From a virus, in the IMG/VR virus record IMGVR_UViG_3300045454_000148, positions 1 to 29,464 of that record: a DNA stretch of 29,464 bases, one strand, 5' to 3'. Within the stretch, counting starts at the first letter, position 1. Every line of letters starts with the position of its first letter. Of the stretch, positions 14,339-26,005 are shown in pieces. The notes beneath the pieces were generated by a model, which saw nothing but the letters and a program-made list of their open reading frames with translations, had not been told where the DNA came from and made no database searches. The position numbers and the translations under genes are program-made.

Positions 14339-14574
14339 GAGCAGGGCTCCTGTTCGGTGCGGGCCTGGGTGGTGGCGGAGTGGCACGAGCACGGGCACGC
14401 GGCCAGCTCGTCGCGCTCGTCGTCCCATGCGGTCCCGGAGCACGCGCGGTGCTTGCCGTCTCGGCAGTCGGGGTTCATGGCCGCGGGCGAACCCTGAGGT
14501 CCGCCCGCCGGCGCCCCAACGGTGAGGTCCCGCGCGCGGGCGGGCGGGGGAACGTTCCGGTCGGTGGTGCTCAT
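14335..14574 (-). CDS. Zinc-binding microprotein, copy 2
   Basis: 79 aa from an ATG at 14574, whose A is shared with the helicase stop TGA. Residues 1-32 are a Pro/Ala/Arg-rich leader absent from the paralogue at 11070-11237. From Met33 the shared core begins: NPDC, GKH, AC-x-G-x-AWDDE and a closing Cys-x-Cys-x-Cys-His. An internal ATG at Met33 corresponds exactly to the GTG start of the paralogue, so a short form is possible. The metal-binding role is inferred from the Cys/His spacing. Confidence 0.7.
   Translation of the reverse strand: MSTTDRNVPPPARARDLTVGAPAGGPQGSPAAMNPDCRDGKHRACSGTAWDDERDELAACPCSCHSATTQARTEQEPCS
14381..14478 (-). repeat. Diverged duplication, copy 2 of the zinc-microprotein core
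   Basis: Partner of 11140-11237: same length (98 bp), no gaps, about three-quarters identity by hand alignment. The conserved unit ends precisely at the start codon of copy 1 and at an in-frame ATG here. The duplication therefore covered the conserved core of the microprotein, and copy 2 has gained an extra N-terminal segment or copy 1 has lost it. Confidence 0.75.
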
Positions 14575-15815
14575 CAGGCGGTCCTTCCCATGGAGGTCGA
14601 GGGGGTCCATTCGCCGGGGCGGCGTCCGGCGGTGCGTGCGTCGGTCCAGGGCCAGTCGCCGCCGCGTCGGATGGCGCGGGGCCAGTCGCGTTCGTCGCGG
14701 TCGCCGCGCCAGCGGACGAGGTGGGCGAGGTCGGTGTCTTCGTGGTCCAGGGCGATGCCGAGGCCGAACTCGGGCCAGCCCATGAGCGCGGAGGACCCGC
14801 GGGGGCGCAGGTCCCGGTCTCCGCCGCGGGTGACGGCGTGGCCGGCGTGCGCTTCCATCACGAGCGCGAGGCCGCGGTCGCGCAGGGTGTCGAGGGCTGC
14901 CAGGAGCGGTGCGGCGTCGTCGTCGCTGTTGATGGCTCGCGGGATGAGCCGGTACAGCGGGCCGATGAGCAGCAGGTCGGGGGTGTGCTCGTCGACGAGC
15001 CGGTGCACTTCGCCGAGGTCGCGGTCCGTGGTGATGTCCAGGCGCTTGGCGTTCCACACGTGCATGGCCTGCGCGGGGTCGATCTGGCCGTGCATCCGGG
15101 CCTTGACGGTGAGCGGCCGGGCCTTGCGCCGCCACTGCTTCTCGGTGTTCTCGGCGTCGACGACGAGGGTTCGGACGGGTTCGATCGTGCGGAAGGTGAT
15201 CGGGTGCAGGCCGGCGGCGGCGAGGATCGCGATCTGGCGGGTGAACGTGGACTTCCCGGCGCCTTCGCCTCCGGTGAGGATGAGCCGGTCCTGGCGCTCG
15301 AGGAGCTGGGGGATCAGCCAGTCGTACTCGTCGGAGCCGTCGAGGATCTCGGCCAGGGTCTTGGCGTGGGCGTGGCCTGCCTGGCGGTTGGTGCTGCGGA
15401 CGTGCTCCCACTCGTCGCGGGCGTGGGTCATGACGGTCGCGAAGTCCTCGGCGGCGTCGGCGAGCTGCATGGCGCGCATGCCGAACTGCGCGAGCCGGCG
15501 GCGCCCGGCGGCCTCGGCGACCTTGCGGGCGTAGAACGCGACGTTGGAGGCGGTGGGCGTCTCGGCCATGAGGCCGTGCAGGGCGGGCCCGTCGACGTGG
15601 TTCATGCCGCGCTCTCGGGCGGCGGTCATGACGGAGATCGGGTCCACGGGCAGCGCGGCGGAGCGCAGGCCGATGATGAGCTCCCACAGCCGGGCGAGGG
15701 CCTGGTTCTGGAAGTCGTCGGGGGTGCAGTGGTCGAGGGCGAAGCGGACGGACTCGGGATCCAGGAGGGCGGCGCCGACGACGGCGCGCTCGTTGGCGTC
15801 TGCGGGGGTGCTCAC
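14574..15815 (-). CDS. DnaB-like replicative helicase
   Basis: 413 aa. The start at GTG 15815 is chosen because it overlaps the initiator stop by 4 bp and has GGAGG with a 5-nt spacer; a GTG at 15827 would hide that ribosome site. Residues 8-100 match the DnaB N-terminal helical domain (ERAVVGAALLDPESV, a 'LWELIIGLRSAALPVDPISV' segment). The RecA-like core has Walker A at 182-190 (GGEGAGKST) and a hydrophobic Walker B-like strand PDLLLIGPLY at 279-288. The layout matches phage RepA/DnaB-type helicases that unwind DNA ahead of the fork. It is immediately downstream of the initiator, the usual initiator-helicase pair. Confidence 0.8.
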   Translation of the reverse strand: MSTPADANERAVVGAALLDPESVRFALDHCTPDDFQNQALARLWELIIGLRSAALPVDPISVMTAARERGMNHVDGPALHGLMAETPTASNVAFYARKVAEAAGRRRLAQFGMRAMQLADAAEDFATVMTHARDEWEHVRSTNRQAGHAHAKTLAEILDGSDEYDWLIPQLLERQDRLILTGGEGAGKSTFTRQIAILAAAGLHPITFRTIEPVRTLVVDAENTEKQWRRKARPLTVKARMHGQIDPAQAMHVWNAKRLDITTDRDLGEVHRLVDEHTPDLLLIGPLYRLIPRAINSDDDAAPLLAALDTLRDRGLALVMEAHAGHAVTRGGDRDLRPRGSSALMGWPEFGLGIALDHEDTDLAHLVRWRGDRDERDWPRAIRRGGDWPWTDARTAGRRPGEWTPSTSMGRTA

Positions 15816-16591
15816 CGGGTCCTCCACTGGTCGATGACTGGTCGTCGACCGAGAGCGGCGGCACCGGTGGCCGCGTCACGCGGCGGCAGCGGCTCGTCCT
15901 CCCAGCCGCCGCGTCCGAGCCAGGTGGCCGGGTGAGGGATGAACTGCTTCTCGGGGAGGTTCGGGTCGGCGGCGAAGCGCTTGGCGCCGAGGATCACCGG
16001 CTCGGCTCCGACGCGGCGGGCGGCCTTGTCGAATGCGCGGCGCGCAGCGTCCTTCCCGACCTTGCGTGGGTAGTGCTCCCAGAAGGCGTCGAACGCTCGC
16101 GCCGTCGCCCGCGGAGCGGGTGACGAAGAGTCTTTCTCCCCTGTTCCCCTGTTCCCCTGTTCCCCTGTTCCAGGCGCGAGGGCTCGCGAGGGCTCGCGAG
16201 GGCTCGCGACACTCTCGCGAATGACGGACTCCTTGTAGTTCATCGTGCCGTCTGGCCTGGGGAAACGTCCCGCCTGGGGCTTGTCCACGCGCTGGATGGA
16301 GTCCCACGACGAGACGTAGAGCAACGGCTGCCCATCGACCTCGTAGCGCCACACCAGTCCGGCCTGGAGGAGGCTTCCGATGGCTTCGGACACCCTCGCG
16401 AGGACTCGCGAGCCCTCGCGAGCGAGGTCCCTGGGGAACAGGTCGGAGACGATCAGCTCGACGTCGTCCTTCCCGACGCCGTTGTCGTCCACGTAGGACT
16501 CGAGCCCCTTGAGCACCAGCCGGGCATCCCAGTCGACGGAGGCGACCGTGCGGGAGCGCCAGAACTCGGGCTTCGTGGATCGGATGCGCAC
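15812..16591 (-). CDS. Replication initiator / replisome organiser
   Basis: 259 aa from a GTG at 16591. Residues 1-105 form a winged-helix domain (RIRSTKPEFWRSRTVASVDWD at the start, then an EAIGSLLQAGLVWRYE segment), known from phage replisome organisers. Residues about 120-165 are low complexity (SPREPSRALAPGTGEQGNRG) and are encoded by the DNA repeats annotated as the origin. The C-terminal part has 'AFDAFWEHYPRKVGKDAARRAFDKAAR' and 'IPHPATWLGRGGWEDE', the DnaT/helicase-loader-binding type of module. The protein probably binds iterons in its own gene and recruits the helicase encoded next. This parallels lambda O. Its N-terminal and C-terminal domains are well recognised; the DNA target is inferred. 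Confidence 0.8.
   Translation of the reverse strand: MRIRSTKPEFWRSRTVASVDWDARLVLKGLESYVDDNGVGKDDVELIVSDLFPRDLAREGSRVLARVSEAIGSLLQAGLVWRYEVDGQPLLYVSSWDSIQRVDKPQAGRFPRPDGTMNYKESVIRESVASPREPSRALAPGTGEQGNRGTGEKDSSSPAPRATARAFDAFWEHYPRKVGKDAARRAFDKAARRVGAEPVILGAKRFAADPNLPEKQFIPHPATWLGRGGWEDEPLPPRDAATGAAALGRRPVIDQWRTR
16141..16422. other. Candidate replication origin (iterons inside the initiator gene)
   Basis: Four elements lie within the initiator gene. First, an 8-bp unit CTGTTCCC repeated four times (16141-16172; last copy one mismatch). Second, cluster A: TCGCGA at 16184, 16194 and 16204, exactly 10 bp apart, as GGCTCGCGAG repeats, plus one at 16215. Third, TTGTCCACG at 16281-16289, one base from the actinobacterial DnaA box TTGTCCACA. 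Fourth, cluster B: CTCGCGAG palindromes at 16395, 16405 and 16415, again 10 bp apart. In cluster B the three copies are read in three different frames, so the repetition is kept at DNA level, not protein level. One-turn spacing suits cooperative binding of an initiator. Confidence 0.6.
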
Positions 16592-16594
16592 GGT

Positions 16595-17095
16595 TCAGAC
16601 CTCCCGTGGTGGTCGGGTGTCGGCGGCGTACACGGCGAGGGCGTAGGCCTGCCAGATGTCAGCGTGGAAGCCGTGGAACCAGCCGGGCGCGGCCTTGGTG
16701 CCCTTGCCGTGGTTCCGGCCGCCGGGTGCGAAGCGGTCGACGAGGGCCTGGCGGACGTTGGAGTCGGACGCCTTCGCGCAGTGGCAGTGGTGCACCTTGA
16801 CCGGGAGCCGCTTGACGAGCTCGACGTCGTCGACGGGCGCCGCCTCGAGGAACCGGCCGATCCACACGCACGTCTCGAAGACCTCGGCGCCGACGGCCAT
16901 GCCGTAGGAGGCGACCATCTCGATCACGAGCCGGTCGGCAGTGATGAAGCGGTCGAAGCCGTAGTCGCCGCGCAGGAGCCCGAGGAGCTCCTCGTTGGGG
17001 GTCTTCCCGAACCGCAGCGGTCGGCACGTCTCGGTGTCGATGAGGACCCAGCCGGACTCGGCGTTGCCGGGGTCGATCGCAAGGATCGTGCTCAC
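16595..17095 (-). CDS. RuvC-like Holliday-junction resolvase
   Basis: 166 aa from a GTG at 17095 (GTGA overlap with whiB-like). It has the RNase H-like resolvase fold: Asp8 in 'ILAIDPGNAESGW', Glu59 in 'LVIEMVASYGM', Asp111 in 'ASDSNVRQALVDRF', and Asp146 in 'GFHADIWQAYALAVYA'. These acidic positions correspond to the DPG, E, D...D catalytic set of phage RuvC-like proteins. The length is close to bacterial RuvC. It would cut branched DNA formed by recombination or replication before packaging. It is coupled to the initiator gene downstream (3-bp gap). Confidence 0.78.
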   Translation of the reverse strand: MSTILAIDPGNAESGWVLIDTETCRPLRFGKTPNEELLGLLRGDYGFDRFITADRLVIEMVASYGMAVGAEVFETCVWIGRFLEAAPVDDVELVKRLPVKVHHCHCAKASDSNVRQALVDRFAPGGRNHGKGTKAAPGWFHGFHADIWQAYALAVYAADTRPPREV

Positions 17096-17490
17096 GCGCT
17101 CGCCCCCTGTCGGTCGGCGAGGTACTCCTCGACGTGGCGCAGCATCGGCACGCCTTTGGTCCGTCCCCAGGCGCGCACGTCGGCGGCAGTGATCCCCGCA
17201 GCTTCCATGCGCGCCTTGACGATCGCGGCGCCCCTGAGGGCGGGTGCAGCGGGGGCGGTGCGGTTGGCCTGCCGTCCGCGGCGCCGGCGGATCTTCTCGC
17301 GCTCGGCGGTCGTCGTGCCGCCCCAGATGCCTTCGGCTCGGTGGCCGAGTGCGACCTCGAGGCAGTCGGTCGCGAGCGGGCAGCGCGCGCAGACGGCCTT
17401 GGCCCGCGCGACGTCGGCGGCCTGGGACTCGAAGGGGAAGAAGACCTCCGGGTCGACGCCGATGCAGGCTGGTCGCGGCTGGTCGCTCAT
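17092..17490 (-). CDS. WhiB-family iron-sulfur regulator
   Basis: 132 aa, ATG at 17490 overlapping the methyltransferase stop (ATGA). The four cluster ligands are Cys9, Cys34, Cys37 and Cys43 (ACIGVDPEVFF, VCARCPLATDCL). The turn 'EGIWGGTTTAERE' follows at residues 53-65, then a basic stretch KIRRRRGRQ. These are the defining features of Wbl proteins, which bind sigma factor or promoter DNA. After that comes a 55-residue extension with 'ITAADVRAWGRTKGVP', resembling the small DNA-binding motif of Lsr2-type proteins (inference). It is embedded between the methyltransferase and RuvC genes. It probably regulates phage or host transcription. Wbl proteins occur only in actinobacteria and their phages. 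Confidence 0.88.
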   Translation of the reverse strand: MSDQPRPACIGVDPEVFFPFESQAADVARAKAVCARCPLATDCLEVALGHRAEGIWGGTTTAEREKIRRRRGRQANRTAPAAPALRGAAIVKARMEAAGITAADVRAWGRTKGVPMLRHVEEYLADRQGASA

Positions 17491-19181
17491 GCCGCCTCCT
17501 GCTCGAGGTCCAGCGGCGTGCCGGTGATGCACTCCACGAGCGCGGCGACGAGGACCTCCGCGGAGGGCGGGGTGACCGCGTTGCCGAGCTGCTTGACCTT
17601 CTGCCGCTTGGACCCGAGCACGACGTAGTCGGGGACGAACGCCATCCCGGCGTGGATCTCGTGAGGCTCCAGCATCCGGAACAGGCAGTCGTCGACGACG
17701 GCATCCCACTCGGCGGCGGTCAGGAGCGCGTCGCCCTGGATGGTCGTCTGCGTGGGCATCGGCCGGGCGAGGTCGCGCACGCCGGCGTCGTGGGCGTACA
17801 GGGCGCCCCACGTGAGCAGGGACTGGTGGCCCGCGGTGGTGATGGTGCGCATCGCCTCGGCGGCCGGCGTGGACATCTGCCCCTGGTCGCCTCGCGCGGT
17901 GTTGTTCCGCATGACCAGCGGCGGGATGACCAGGCCGTGGTGGTTACCCGACGCGGTGACGGTCGCGAGCGCCTCGTCGGTGGTGTGCGCGACCGAGCCG
18001 CCGCCGCGCAGCTCGCTGACGAACGAGGGGATGACGACGCCGGTCTCGTTGCGCGCGGTCTGGGTGCGCATCGGTGCGTGCACGTCGGACGCCTGCTTGC
18101 CGACCCGACCCTCGACGGGGATCAGGAGCGGCGGGATCGCGACCGCCTTGGTCAGGGCGGTGTGCAGGGTCTTGAGCGGCTCGGTGTCGGCGGGCCAGAC
18201 CCGGGAGTAGGCGTCCGGGTTGCCGTGCTGCTTGTGCTTCGGGTCGTGGGAGTCGTACTGGTTGCCCCCGGCCTCCAGCACGACGGGCCGCGCGTACCGG
18301 CGGGCCCCGGCGGCGATGCGCGCACGGGTCTTCGTCGCCAGAGGCCGCGCGCGGTCTCCGATCCGGGTCCCGGGCAGGCTCCAGTCGATCGCGGCGGCCG
18401 CCGGGACGAACGTCGGCTCGACGAGCTGGCCTCGGCAGGAGACCTTCGGGCAGCGGTAGTCGTACTGCTGGCCGTAGCGGCCCATGTCGTTGCCGGGCCG
18501 ACGCCACACCTGGACGGCCGCGATCGTCTGCTCGCAGGACGGGCACCACGCGCTCGGGCGCAGCCAGCGGTCCCAGTCGGGGTCCCGGCCGATGGACTCG
18601 TGCCAGTAGGCGAGGTACAGCCGGTCGCGGGACTGCGGGGCCCGCGGGGTGCGCACGGCCTGGGCGTGCATCGAGTTCAGCGCGATCAGGCGCGTGCGGT
18701 AGCCGAGCCGCTCGATGCGGCCGCGCCAGGTCAGCCAGTGCTCCCACTTGCGGATGTCCACGACGTTCTCGACGACCCCGGCGAGGACGGGCCGCTGCCG
18801 CAGGTGCATGCCCTCCAGGTAGCGGATGACGTCCTGCATGAGGGCCCGGGACCGGGCGACGTCGTCGGCGATCTCCGGGTCTCCGAAGAGGCCCGGCTGG
18901 GCGTCGAAGTCGACCGGCTTGCCCTTGGCCTGGGACCAGTTCGTGCACTCCGGCGAGGCCCAGAAGATCTCCGCGTAGGGGTGGCGGGCGACGTCCAGGT
19001 CGCGGATGTCGCCGCGGAAGTGCTCGACGTCGGGGAAGTTCGTGGAGTGCGTCTCGATGGCGAGCTGGTCGTGGTTGGCCGCCAGCACGGGGACGATGCC
19101 GGGCACGGCGTGCGCGCCCTGGGTCGCGCCGCCGGCGCCGCAGAACCAGTCGTTCAGGCGCAGGGTGTCGCCGCGCGCCAT
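17487..19181 (-). CDS. DNA cytosine-5 methyltransferase
   Basis: 564 aa. Start ATG 19181, with an alternative GTG at 19184. Motif I is FCGAGG (13-18). Motif IV, normally PPC, is SPEC here with Cys79 as nucleophile. Motif VI is ENV (138-140), motif VIII QSRDR (183-187), motif X QLGNAV (531-536). A zinc-like site Cys213/216 and Cys244/249 lies at the start of the target-recognition region. Residues about 278-490 contain six degenerate copies of a P-[LM]-x-T-x-T module followed by a hydrophobic strand. No restriction endonuclease is nearby, so this looks like an orphan methyltransferase protecting phage DNA or marking regulatory sites. The large recognition region is longer than in typical 330-400-aa enzymes. 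Confidence 0.9.
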   Translation of the reverse strand: MARGDTLRLNDWFCGAGGATQGAHAVPGIVPVLAANHDQLAIETHSTNFPDVEHFRGDIRDLDVARHPYAEIFWASPECTNWSQAKGKPVDFDAQPGLFGDPEIADDVARSRALMQDVIRYLEGMHLRQRPVLAGVVENVVDIRKWEHWLTWRGRIERLGYRTRLIALNSMHAQAVRTPRAPQSRDRLYLAYWHESIGRDPDWDRWLRPSAWCPSCEQTIAAVQVWRRPGNDMGRYGQQYDYRCPKVSCRGQLVEPTFVPAAAAIDWSLPGTRIGDRARPLATKTRARIAAGARRYARPVVLEAGGNQYDSHDPKHKQHGNPDAYSRVWPADTEPLKTLHTALTKAVAIPPLLIPVEGRVGKQASDVHAPMRTQTARNETGVVIPSFVSELRGGGSVAHTTDEALATVTASGNHHGLVIPPLVMRNNTARGDQGQMSTPAAEAMRTITTAGHQSLLTWGALYAHDAGVRDLARPMPTQTTIQGDALLTAAEWDAVVDDCLFRMLEPHEIHAGMAFVPDYVVLGSKRQKVKQLGNAVTPPSAEVLVAALVECITGTPLDLEQEAA

Positions 19182-19354
19182 CACCAGTCGCCCCCGTCCG
19201 CTGGTGGGCCGGCGTGGAGTTCCACGTGCGACGGGGCGCTGGTGTCCACGCGCTCCACGTCGGCGTCGCGGTCGTCGATGACGAGGTGCAGCGGCACGTC
19301 GTCGTGCACCCCGTCGAGCTCTCGGCGCAGGTCGCCGACCGTCCTGGCCCTCAC
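19181..19354 (-). CDS. Small acidic protein, unknown
   Basis: 57 aa from a GTG at 19354 (GTGA overlap). It contains 'VGDLRRELDGVHDDVPLHLVIDDRDADVERVD', a short helix followed by a beta strand and a charged turn, and ends in a Gly/Pro/Asp tail. Its last base is shared with the methyltransferase start (TGATG), so the two are coupled. Small acidic proteins in phage early operons can act as partners or inhibitors of host enzymes, but nothing here identifies a target. Confidence 0.6.
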   Translation of the reverse strand: MRARTVGDLRRELDGVHDDVPLHLVIDDRDADVERVDTSAPSHVELHAGPPADGGDW

Positions 19355-19590
19355 GAGGCCTCCTCCTGTGCGTGTTCGTGGGCGACGAGCACGGGCTCGC
19401 CGTAGGCGATCTGCACCAGCTCCGCACGGCGCAGGCGCCACGAGGGGTTGCCCGTTGCGCCGGTCGAGCGGCGGCGGTGGATCTCGATGACCCGGGTGAG
19501 CGCGTCCTCGCGGGAGGTGGCGGCCACGGTGACGCTGCCGCCCTTGGTGCCCGGCGCGGTGTACGGCACCGCCCATCGCTGGCCGCTCAC
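19351..19590 (-). CDS. Small protein, unknown
   Basis: 79 aa from a GTG at 19590, overlapping the clamp gene stop by 4 bp. The N-terminal half is beta-like (RWAVPYTAPGTKGGSVTVAATS), then a helix (REDALTRVIEIHRRRS), and the C-terminal half is 'WRLRRAELVQIAYGEPVLVAHEHAQEEAS'. The protein is compact, mixed alpha/beta, without Cys. It is encoded directly after the sliding clamp, which makes a replication accessory role possible, but no family is recognised. Confidence 0.65.
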   Translation of the reverse strand: MSGQRWAVPYTAPGTKGGSVTVAATSREDALTRVIEIHRRRSTGATGNPSWRLRRAELVQIAYGEPVLVAHEHAQEEAS

Positions 19591-20717: not shown

Positions 20718-21424
20718 CAGGTCGCTCCTGTCTCACTGGTCTCGAGTACGGGCAGAACGGGCCATTCGCCGCGCACGTCCTGGGGCTTGCCCTGGCGGGC
20801 GAAGTAGTCGGCGAGGTACGCGCACTGCTCGGCGCGCCACCCGATCTGGGCGGCGTGGAGGCGCTCGGCGGGCGGGAACGGCGCTCGGGCGCCCATGGCG
20901 CGCACGACGTGCACGGCGGCGATCGCGTCGGCGGACGCCTCGTGCGCGTCGTCGAGGGTGACGCCGTACACCTCGCAGCAGGCGGCGAGGGTGCGCTTGC
21001 CCTTGCGGTACCGGTCCAGCTGCTTGTCCAACACGAACGGGTCGACGACGACGGCCGGGACGAAGCGGTCCAGGCCGTACCGGGTGCACTCCCGGTCCAG
21101 GACGGTGAAGTCGTAGTAGGCGTTGAACGCGACGAGCGGGATCCCCTGGTCCTGCCAGGCACCGAGTGCCCGAGCGACCATCGCGACGCCGTCCGCGGCC
21201 GGCACCCCCTCAGCGCGGGCGCGCTCGGTCGTGACGCCGTGCACCGCGGTGGCACCGGCAGGGATCTGCACGCCGGGGTCGACGAGCAGGTCCAGGCGGT
21301 CCTCGGCGGTGCCGTCCGCCTCGACGAGCGAGGCGTGCGCGGTGACGATCCGCGCGTCCTCCGGATCCGGGCCCGTGGTCTCCAGGTCGAAGGCGACCAG
21401 CGGGCCCTCCCACCAGGCCGTCAC
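20714..21424 (-). CDS. DnaQ-like 3'-5' exonuclease (DEDDh)
   Basis: 236 aa from a GTG at 21424 (GTGA overlap with recT). Exo I: 'AFDLETTG' with Asp13 and Glu15. Exo II: 'AFNAYYDFTVL' with Asn101 and Asp105. Exo III: 'HEASADAIAA' with His161 and Asp166. This is the DEDDh set of the proofreading epsilon family. The length suits a stand-alone exonuclease domain with a ~60-residue C-terminal extension. The gene precedes the clamp gene, so a proofreading or end-processing role at the fork or in recombination is plausible. I see no canonical clamp-binding QLxLF peptide; the closest is QLDRY at 135-139. Confidence 0.88.
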   Translation of the reverse strand: MTAWWEGPLVAFDLETTGPDPEDARIVTAHASLVEADGTAEDRLDLLVDPGVQIPAGATAVHGVTTERARAEGVPAADGVAMVARALGAWQDQGIPLVAFNAYYDFTVLDRECTRYGLDRFVPAVVVDPFVLDKQLDRYRKGKRTLAACCEVYGVTLDDAHEASADAIAAVHVVRAMGARAPFPPAERLHAAQIGWRAEQCAYLADYFARQGKPQDVRGEWPVLPVLETSETGATW

Positions 21425-22281
21425 CGCGCCGCCTCCTGCCCGGCAAGCCACGCCGCGTCGGCCTCGGGGTCGAGGAGCTCACCCGTGGCCGTGTCGACGT
21501 CGCCGTGCTCGGTCTCCTCGGTCGGGTGGACCTCGATGAAGTTCGGGGTGATGTCGTCCAGGTCGCGGGTGACGTCCTCCCCGGTCCGGGTGGACTCGTC
21601 CAGCGCGGCCGCGGTCGCGAGGTTGTGCAGCTCGGAGGACAGCGGCAGCCACCGGATGAGCTGACGGACCGCGGTCTTGCGGGCCATCGCGTCCCAGTCG
21701 GTCTTCCACGGGCCGTTGTTCGACGCCCGGGAGCGGGTGCGGATCTTCTCGATGTCTTCCTTCGAGAGCACCACGAACGCGGACCCGCCGTCCTTGAGCA
21801 CGGCAGCGGCGTACACGGCGATGACGTCGCCGCGGCCGGTCAGCGCCGGCTTGTGGCGCAGGACGGGCTCCAGGCCGTAGGCGTAGTCGAACTCGTCGTG
21901 CTCGTGCACGGTGTGCGCGGCGATCGACTTCATCTGCCCGGACTGCCACGCGAGCTTCACCAGCCCGCGGTACCCGGGGATGAACGTGACCTCCTGGCCG
22001 TAGGGCACGAAGTACGCCTCCCCGAGCGGCCCGGGCTCCAGGCCCAGCTGCGCGGAGGTCATGAGCGCCCCGAGGAACGACTGGGGGTTGCAGCGGGACA
22101 GCTGCGGGGTCTGCCGCAGCACCGTCAGGGCGATCCGTGCGAGCCGGTCGGGGTCCATGTGCTTGGGCAGCGCGCGGGCCATCTGCGGCTTCATCTGCTC
22201 GATGAGCCCGGCCAGGGACTGCGGCTGCTCGGTCTGGGCGACCGCGTTGTCCTGCACGCGGCGGCTGAGGTCTCGTCCCAT
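21421..22281 (-). CDS. recT: RecT-family single-strand annealing recombinase
   Basis: 286 aa, ATG at 22281 with AAGGAGAAG just upstream, one base after the exonuclease stop. The family core is clear: 'MARALPKHMDPDRLARIALTVL', 'TPQLSRCNPQSFLGALMTSAQLGLEPG', 'EAYFVPYGQEVTFIPGYRGLVKLAWQSGQ' and 'WDAMARKTAVRQLIRWLPLSSEL'. The C-terminus is acidic. It anneals complementary single strands at resected ends. It pairs with the YqaJ-type nuclease encoded immediately upstream, forming the usual phage recombination duo for concatemer formation or circularisation. Confidence 0.93.
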   Translation of the reverse strand: MGRDLSRRVQDNAVAQTEQPQSLAGLIEQMKPQMARALPKHMDPDRLARIALTVLRQTPQLSRCNPQSFLGALMTSAQLGLEPGPLGEAYFVPYGQEVTFIPGYRGLVKLAWQSGQMKSIAAHTVHEHDEFDYAYGLEPVLRHKPALTGRGDVIAVYAAAVLKDGGSAFVVLSKEDIEKIRTRSRASNNGPWKTDWDAMARKTAVRQLIRWLPLSSELHNLATAAALDESTRTGEDVTRDLDDITPNFIEVHPTEETEHGDVDTATGELLDPEADAAWLAGQEAAR

Positions 22282-25466: not shown

Positions 25467-25697
25467 TCAGGCGCGCTTGGCGGCCTGGCGCTGTGCGGAC
25501 AGCGGTGTCATGGACAGCGGGTCCGCGGTGCGGTGGCGGTTCTCGTACCGCTCGATGTCGGCGAGGTCGAAGCGCCACAGGCGGCCGACCTTGAGGCCGG
25601 GGATGCGCCCGGCGTTCGCGGAGCGGGTGACCCAGTCGCGGGAGCGGCGCAGTCGCTGAGCCACCTCGTCGGGGGTGAGGCGCGTCGGGGTGTCCAC
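25467..25697 (-). CDS. Excisionase-like / MerR-type HTH protein
   Basis: 76 aa from a GTG at 25697, one base after the stop of the preceding gene; no strong ribosome site, so coupling is likely. 'LTPDEVAQRLRRSRDWVTRSANAGRIPGLKVGRLWRFDLADIERYEN' is the helix-turn-helix plus wing of the HTH_17/AlpA-excisionase family. The basic 20-residue tail (RQAAKRA) could add DNA contact. It may be the recombination-directionality factor for the att site at the tRNA-His end, or an early regulator. The family match is good; the specific role is inferred. Confidence 0.75.
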   Translation of the reverse strand: MDTPTRLTPDEVAQRLRRSRDWVTRSANAGRIPGLKVGRLWRFDLADIERYENRHRTADPLSMTPLSAQRQAAKRA

Positions 25698-25698
25698 G

Positions 25699-25947
25699 TC
25701 AGGCCGGGACCTTCTCGTCGGCCGGCAGCACCTCGAACAGGTCGTCGAGGGTGACGTCGGCGAAGGCGAAGGTCGCGACAAGCGCCGCGATGAACTTCCC
25801 GCCGGGGGCCTGCAGGCCCCGCAGAACGCGGGAGACGGTGGCGGGGTCGACGCCCATGCGCCTGGCGAGCTCGTCGTCGGTCGTGATCTGGGCGAGCTTC
25901 CGGTACTTCGCGAGCTCGTCGCTGCGGAGTCGGAGCGTGGCGACCAT
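25699..25947 (-). CDS. Cro-like HTH (XRE) regulator, first early gene
   Basis: 82 aa, ATG at 25947 with a near-perfect ribosome site (GGAAGGAGGACGG before ATG). An upstream ATG would add a 67-residue non-protein-like stretch that covers the promoter, so it is rejected. A lambda-repressor-type HTH spans about residues 19-52: 'ITTDDELARRMGVDPATVSRVLRG'. The C-terminal third (VTLDDLFEVLPADEK) is acidic. Being first in the early operon and divergent from the repressor gene, it occupies the position of Cro. It is short, as expected for Cro-like proteins. Confidence 0.8.
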   Translation of the reverse strand: MVATLRLRSDELAKYRKLAQITTDDELARRMGVDPATVSRVLRGLQAPGGKFIAALVATFAFADVTLDDLFEVLPADEKVPA

Positions 25948-26005
25948 CCGTCCTCCTTCCTGGGCTTCATGGCCGCTGACCTCGTGTCTTGCGGCGATAC
26001 CTAGG

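Follow-up and report, generated by a model that had tools for sequence, protein, structure and literature searches.

Where does this phage begin to copy its DNA, and could the starting point lie inside the gene for its own initiator? The question is raised by a virus record of 29,464 nucleotides (the window), which is of actinobacterial type as judged from its relatives and in which a predicted replication initiator gene is studded with short repeats. A preliminary description, made from the sequence letters, proposed an in-gene origin marked by helically phased iterons and a DnaA-box-like site. Comparison with relatives strongly supports the iterons and gives no support to the DnaA box; origin activity is what we infer from the former.

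The initiator gene and its repeat arrays

The features on which the argument turns are listed below, in window coordinates.

14574-15827, minus strand: DnaB-like replicative helicase gene, downstream of the initiator gene and overlapping its 3' end
15812-16591, minus strand: replication initiator gene, 259 amino acids (PHROG 2149, "replication initiation protein", E 4.9e-77)
16395-16422, minus strand: array B, three CTCGCGAG palindromes in 10-bp steps, encoding residues 57-66
16283-16285, minus strand: codon of D103 in the motif QRVDKP (QR[IV]D-KP), residue 103 being predictive of the iteron core among relatives
16281-16289, plus strand: TTGTCCACG, proposed as a DnaA box and rejected here
16174-16220, minus strand: array A in linker codons, TCGCGA at 16215, 16204, 16194 and 16184 and a degenerate GCGCGA at 16174
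16141-16171, minus strand: array C, a run of four GGAACAG(R) 8-mers in tandem (plus-strand reading CTGTTCC), directly after array A

The PHROG 2149 profile match spans residues 2-242, so that the initiator is a full-length member of this family. The protein consists of a winged helix-turn-helix (wHTH) domain (residues 1-118), a disordered linker (about 122-160) and a helical C-terminal domain (161-230). An AlphaFold2 model (mean pLDDT 86) is confident for the wHTH domain, helical in the C-terminal domain and below a pLDDT of 50 at linker residues 127-143 and 150-156. The protein matched no Pfam family at E <= 1 and no NCBIfam family, a PDB sequence search with the domain profile returned nothing meaningful, and Foldseek found nothing at E <= 0.001. 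Eight of 95 relatives match the Pfam DnaT DNA-binding domain, hinting that the C-terminal domain may be a helicase-loader or primosomal module. The neighboring helicase gene carries a DnaB N-terminal domain (E 7e-15) and AAA_25 and matches PHROG 19 (E 2e-22). No Rfam match was found anywhere in the window. An excisionase gene at 25467-25970 suggests that the phage is temperate, and genes for a WhiB-like regulator (17092-17490, minus strand) and a RecT annealing protein (21421-22281, minus strand) lie in the same early region as the initiator.

All the array sequences named in the preliminary description were found at the positions it gave. The five copies of CTCGCGAG in 29.5 kb all fall inside arrays A and B (16183, 16193, 16395, 16405 and 16415), and the shorter TCGCGA is found at 16184, 16194, 16204 and 16215 in A and at 16396, 16406 and 16416 in B. 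A count of the palindrome across the whole window, which had been suggested as a check, is ordinary (5 against 2.8 expected); what is unusual is the clustering and phasing. From 16215 down to the degenerate fifth copy (GCGCGA, 16174-16179), the steps of array A are 11, 10, 10 and 10 bp. The 11-bp step had been called slightly off phase; it is present and normal, as steps of 10 and of 11 bp are similarly common in relatives. The four tandem 8-mers described beside array A, three CTGTTCCC and one CTGTTCC, are also there, and they prove to be more than neighbors, namely a conserved third array. A C-5 cytosine methylase gene (17487-19427, minus strand) lies near the proposed origin, and since the iterons contain CpG sites, methylation could influence the predicted binding of the initiator.

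It had been argued that repeat copies in all three reading frames point to a DNA-level feature, and the cores occupy all three frames in array A as well as in array B. To put a number on this, the initiator gene was recoded 4000 times with synonymous codons while the protein was held fixed, using either the codon usage of the window or the gene's own codons in shuffled order. The seven TCGCGA observed compare with means of 0.30 and 0.62, respectively, and were reached in 0 of 4000 recodings under either scheme; five pairs at 10 or 11 bp compare with 0.004 and 0.015, and four GGAACAG with 0.03 and 0.24 (0 of 4000). The repeats are thus real and lie far above chance once the protein is held fixed.

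Conservation of the arrays in relatives

The comparison drew loci related to the initiator gene from viral contigs, bacterial genomes and named phages. The initiator family comprises at least 441 phage records, often annotated merely as hypothetical or HTH proteins; a plasmid search gave few, partial and distant matches, and one viral scan with the L120 protein as query gave no relatives. The alignment of homologous initiators had been set beforehand as a test, and in it the arrays persist while residues change. In the relatives carried by actinophages and actinobacterial prophages, the gene retains three arrays, each in a constant place, with B in codons of the DNA-binding domain (in the window, within the long helix 53-76), A in codons of the disordered linker and C, as tandem GGAACAGR, right after A. 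Spacings between copies of the same core are 10 (99 cases), 11 (125), 21-22 (30), 32 (5) and other (5) bp, so that 254 of 264 equal 10, 11 or 21-22 bp. The gap from B to A ranges from 147 to 276 bp, and its helical phase is kept (resultant length 0.77, n=68, partly through shared ancestry). The density of TCGCGA is 7.2 per kb within the gene, compared with 0.63 per kb in the flanks. Of the outcomes named beforehand as refuting, those examined did not occur: the arrays are retained in relatives, and phased pairs hardly exist outside them. In 20 relative records, the matches listed include two single phased pairs that lie outside the initiator-gene arrays (G779:2166 and G777:41142). The repeats are therefore repeated, helically phased and conserved together with the initiator gene, as is expected of an iteron-type in-gene origin.

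Arrays A and B are also tied to each other, since within a lineage they largely use one and the same core. Of 74 initiators in which a core is repeated in B, 67 have two or more copies of it in A, and A holds on average 2.76 copies of B's core, compared with 0.40 in codon-shuffled genes (74 loci). The seven loci that break strict agreement mostly have degenerate cores. Comparison thus strongly supports A and B as helically phased iterons, which the gene's own initiator is predicted to bind: their location, their phase and the match between A and B are maintained, although the sites themselves and the residues encoded there differ between relatives.

In 111 of 144 initiator genes, GGAACAGR is repeated in tandem three or more times. 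Phase 7 of the 8-mer varies (G 72%, A 26%) whichever of the three codon positions it occupies, and third-codon sites at other phases hardly change, for example with A in 201 of 201 at phase 2. This pattern shows that array C is under selection at the DNA level. The array is constant across actinophages whose iterons differ. It is conserved and adjacent to A, as a DNA unwinding element would be, but it is not AT-rich. A G-quadruplex was considered as its common property and rejected, since the frequent A at phase 7 leaves just 40 of 111 arrays with four G3+ tracts. In proteobacterial relatives, array A is often followed by short tandem repeats rich in purines, most of them with a period of 5 or 10; several of these exceed the codon-shuffled maximum and several do not.

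Some individual loci merit mention. A 24-kb contig of a betaproteobacterial assembly (Rugamonas rubra, NZ_FOTW01000043.1) encodes an actinobacterial-type initiator with TCGCGA and GGAACAGR arrays, reflecting either contamination or a host jump. Private iterons common to A and B (CTTCCGCC, TGCGCCGA and TGCGCCGACA) were found in three distant relatives, Gordonia phages Matteo and Attis and Mycobacterium phage Jamie19 (L310, L312 and L313), the last of these sequences being the site of the distant actinophage Attis; array C is standard in Matteo and Jamie19 and degenerate in Attis. Arthrobacter phage Juno112 (L315:598-1377) has a different, distant initiator, whose linker holds repeats too, namely AACGGGGTGCCACGCTGGACC-like units with a spacing of 22 bp and AACCGTCCTTG repeats of 11 bp.

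Lineage-specific cores and residue 103

Cores differ by lineage. Most actinobacterial members use TCGCGA, while others use TCCGGA or TCCCGGA, TCACTGA, or TCAAGA; the core of proteobacterial relatives is TCGACGA or TCGCCGA. Among actinobacterial-type members, the use of TCGCGA follows one residue of the initiator. In a discovery set of 75 actinobacterial-type members, D103 occurs with TCGCGA in 61 of 61 and N, E, Q or S occurs without it in 14 of 14. Residue 103 is the best of 118 alignment columns (MI/H 1.00), followed by residue 65 (0.93); the best remaining column outside array B reaches 0.57. Residue 65 was discarded as an independent predictor, as its codon lies inside array B and the link is trivial.

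The rule was first spotted in three sequences of the same data, so that loci added later constitute the fairer test. Ten named phages fit it: PFR1, Butters, BoyNamedSue, Bipper, Donovan and Bernal13 combine D103 with TCGCGA, Mcklovin combines Q103 with TCCGGA, Ididsumtinwong combines N103 with TCACTGA, and Hegedechwinu and Kersh combine N103 with TCAAGA among their sites, as does a Bifidobacterium prophage sharing their VNHP motif. Five further newly fetched loci fit as well. Altogether, 90 of 90 actinobacterial-type initiators are concordant, with TCGCGA accompanying D in 69 of 69 and any other residue never. On the tree, residue and core switch at least eight times; the well-supported independent pairs agree in five of five, giving a sign-test p of 0.06, the lowest value that five pairs can reach. 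The rule stops at the proteobacterial branch, in which other cores accompany D103. Residue 103 may be a main determinant of core specificity or a marker of it, perhaps without contacting the DNA. On the best explanation of these patterns, the arrays co-evolve with the DNA-binding domain, so that every phage lineage would have an initiator-origin specificity of its own.

The predicted origin, its rivals and its counterparts

Taken together, the arrays very probably form part of a replication origin that belongs to the phage itself and is embedded in the initiator gene; membership in the PHROG 2149 family and the DnaB-like helicase next door count in favor. The composition profile and GC skew, also named beforehand as a check, have no clear switch at the arrays, which counts against this reading. 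In the mechanism that we infer, the N-terminal winged-helix domain would bind the TC-core-GA palindromes of arrays B and A, one per helical turn, and the bound initiators would align on one face of the helix to form a nucleoprotein complex. The DNA beside array A, at the short tandem array C, would then be opened or used as a landing site, and the C-terminal domain would pass a strand to the helicase encoded next door, which would place the start of replication here.

Phased palindromes inside the gene of a wHTH protein would also fit autoregulation, and replication initiators often autoregulate. The arrays could thus be operators through which the initiator or another regulator represses or blocks transcription of the gene, with replication starting elsewhere. 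Yet the sites lie 170-420 nt inside the gene and not at a promoter, A is followed by a third conserved array that differs in sequence, and the anatomy fits known in-gene origins; a purely regulatory role is accordingly unlikely, although a double role as operator and origin is possible. A partition (parS-like) or packaging site is a still less likely reading and would be quite surprising. The parS loci of RedRock are likewise tandem 8-bp repeats (PMC7157519), but their unit is TCGAGTAG-like, so that identity with these loci was rejected, and the RedRock region has no GGAACAG array. Moreover, no parA or parB was found among the window genes scanned (part of the open reading frames), and the A and B cores track the initiator's own residue 103.

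An actinobacterial DnaA box with one mismatch does lie between the arrays, as TTGTCCACG, and could mark a host-DnaA-dependent origin. Allowing at most one mismatch, however, the window contains one match where 2.1 are expected by chance. The site consists of codons of the conserved QRVDKP motif; TTGTCCAC is found in 2 of 95 relatives, and intact VDK motifs mostly use the commoner GTCGACAAG, which breaks the box. Conserved DnaA boxes, the mark of a DnaA-dependent origin, were thus not found among these relatives, and we give this reading hardly any credence. Finally, the codons of A and C encode a disordered linker, and the repeats might reflect low complexity of the protein or codon bias in the linker. 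The synonymous null rejects this explanation, as do cores in all frames, the location of B in a folded helix and the variation of C at one phase of the 8-mer regardless of codon position, leaving it with virtually no probability.

The in-gene origin is of a known kind. As the preliminary description noted, lambda has an in-gene origin. Its initiator gene O contains, in its central part, iterons with an unwinding tract beside them, and lies next to the gene for a helicase-loading partner (PMC7466680). In the pSK41 RepA_N system, a wHTH N-terminal domain binds Rep boxes central in rep, the origin encodes the Rep linker, and the C-terminal domain is separate (PMC5703833). The initiator described here likewise has a wHTH domain, in-gene boxes and a separate C-terminal domain, and its arrays A and C fall within the codons of the linker, a placement shared with lambda O and pSK41 rep, the iteron-encoded stretch falling between the DNA-binding and C-terminal parts in lambda O as well (PMC7466680; PMC5703833). 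The differences are equally clear. The iterons of lambda are four imperfect inverted repeats of 19 bp, grouped in a single cluster and accompanied by an AT-rich tract (PMC7466680). Such iterons were not found in the phage, which has 6-8-bp palindromes every 10-11 bp in two arrays, separated across relatives by about 150-280 bp, and an adjacent tandem 8-mer that is not AT-rich. The pSK41 origin has four Rep boxes with AT-rich tracts, and its review describes no second array (PMC5703833). At the Pfam threshold given above, the window protein matched neither phage replication protein O nor RepA_N (PF06970). Solved RepA_N initiators rank first and third in a list of similar folds (4pql, Z 7.3; 4pt7, Z 6.7; also 5kbj, Z 6.4), a weak similarity in a range shared with unrelated wHTH chains. 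The system thus appears to work like the lambda O and pSK41 origins and is by sequence a member of neither.

In the extrachromosomal cluster A mycobacteriophages Miko and Jeeves, repA is sufficient for replication and the origin is presumed to lie within or next to it (PMC7157519). This resembles the arrangement proposed here, of a phage initiator gene with an origin in or beside it; however, that RepA belongs to a different family (pMSC262-like, 320-350 amino acids), serves prophage maintenance, and had no repeats identified (PMC7157519). Among open-access papers, none was found that locates an origin of the PHROG 2149 family or contains its repeats. What is new is the layout of short phased sites in two arrays, together with array C and the rule linking a residue to its site. 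It is possible, if somewhat doubtful, that the origin is modular with two independent specificities: A and B would be read by the winged helix, with a single residue after the wing largely setting the code, and the separate C, constant across actinophages and replaced in proteobacterial relatives, would serve for unwinding or helicase landing as an element of a new type, recognized by a host-lineage factor or by a conserved domain of the initiator.

If the proposed origin is correct, the likely origin of many laboratory actinophages (e.g., Butters, Donovan and PFR1) could be read from sequence alone. Array C raises the sharp question of how origins open in GC-rich genomes. The natural joint swaps of core and residue 103 offer a rare and directly testable set on how initiator-origin specificity evolves, a specificity that, if real, would keep phage lineages from cross-replicating.
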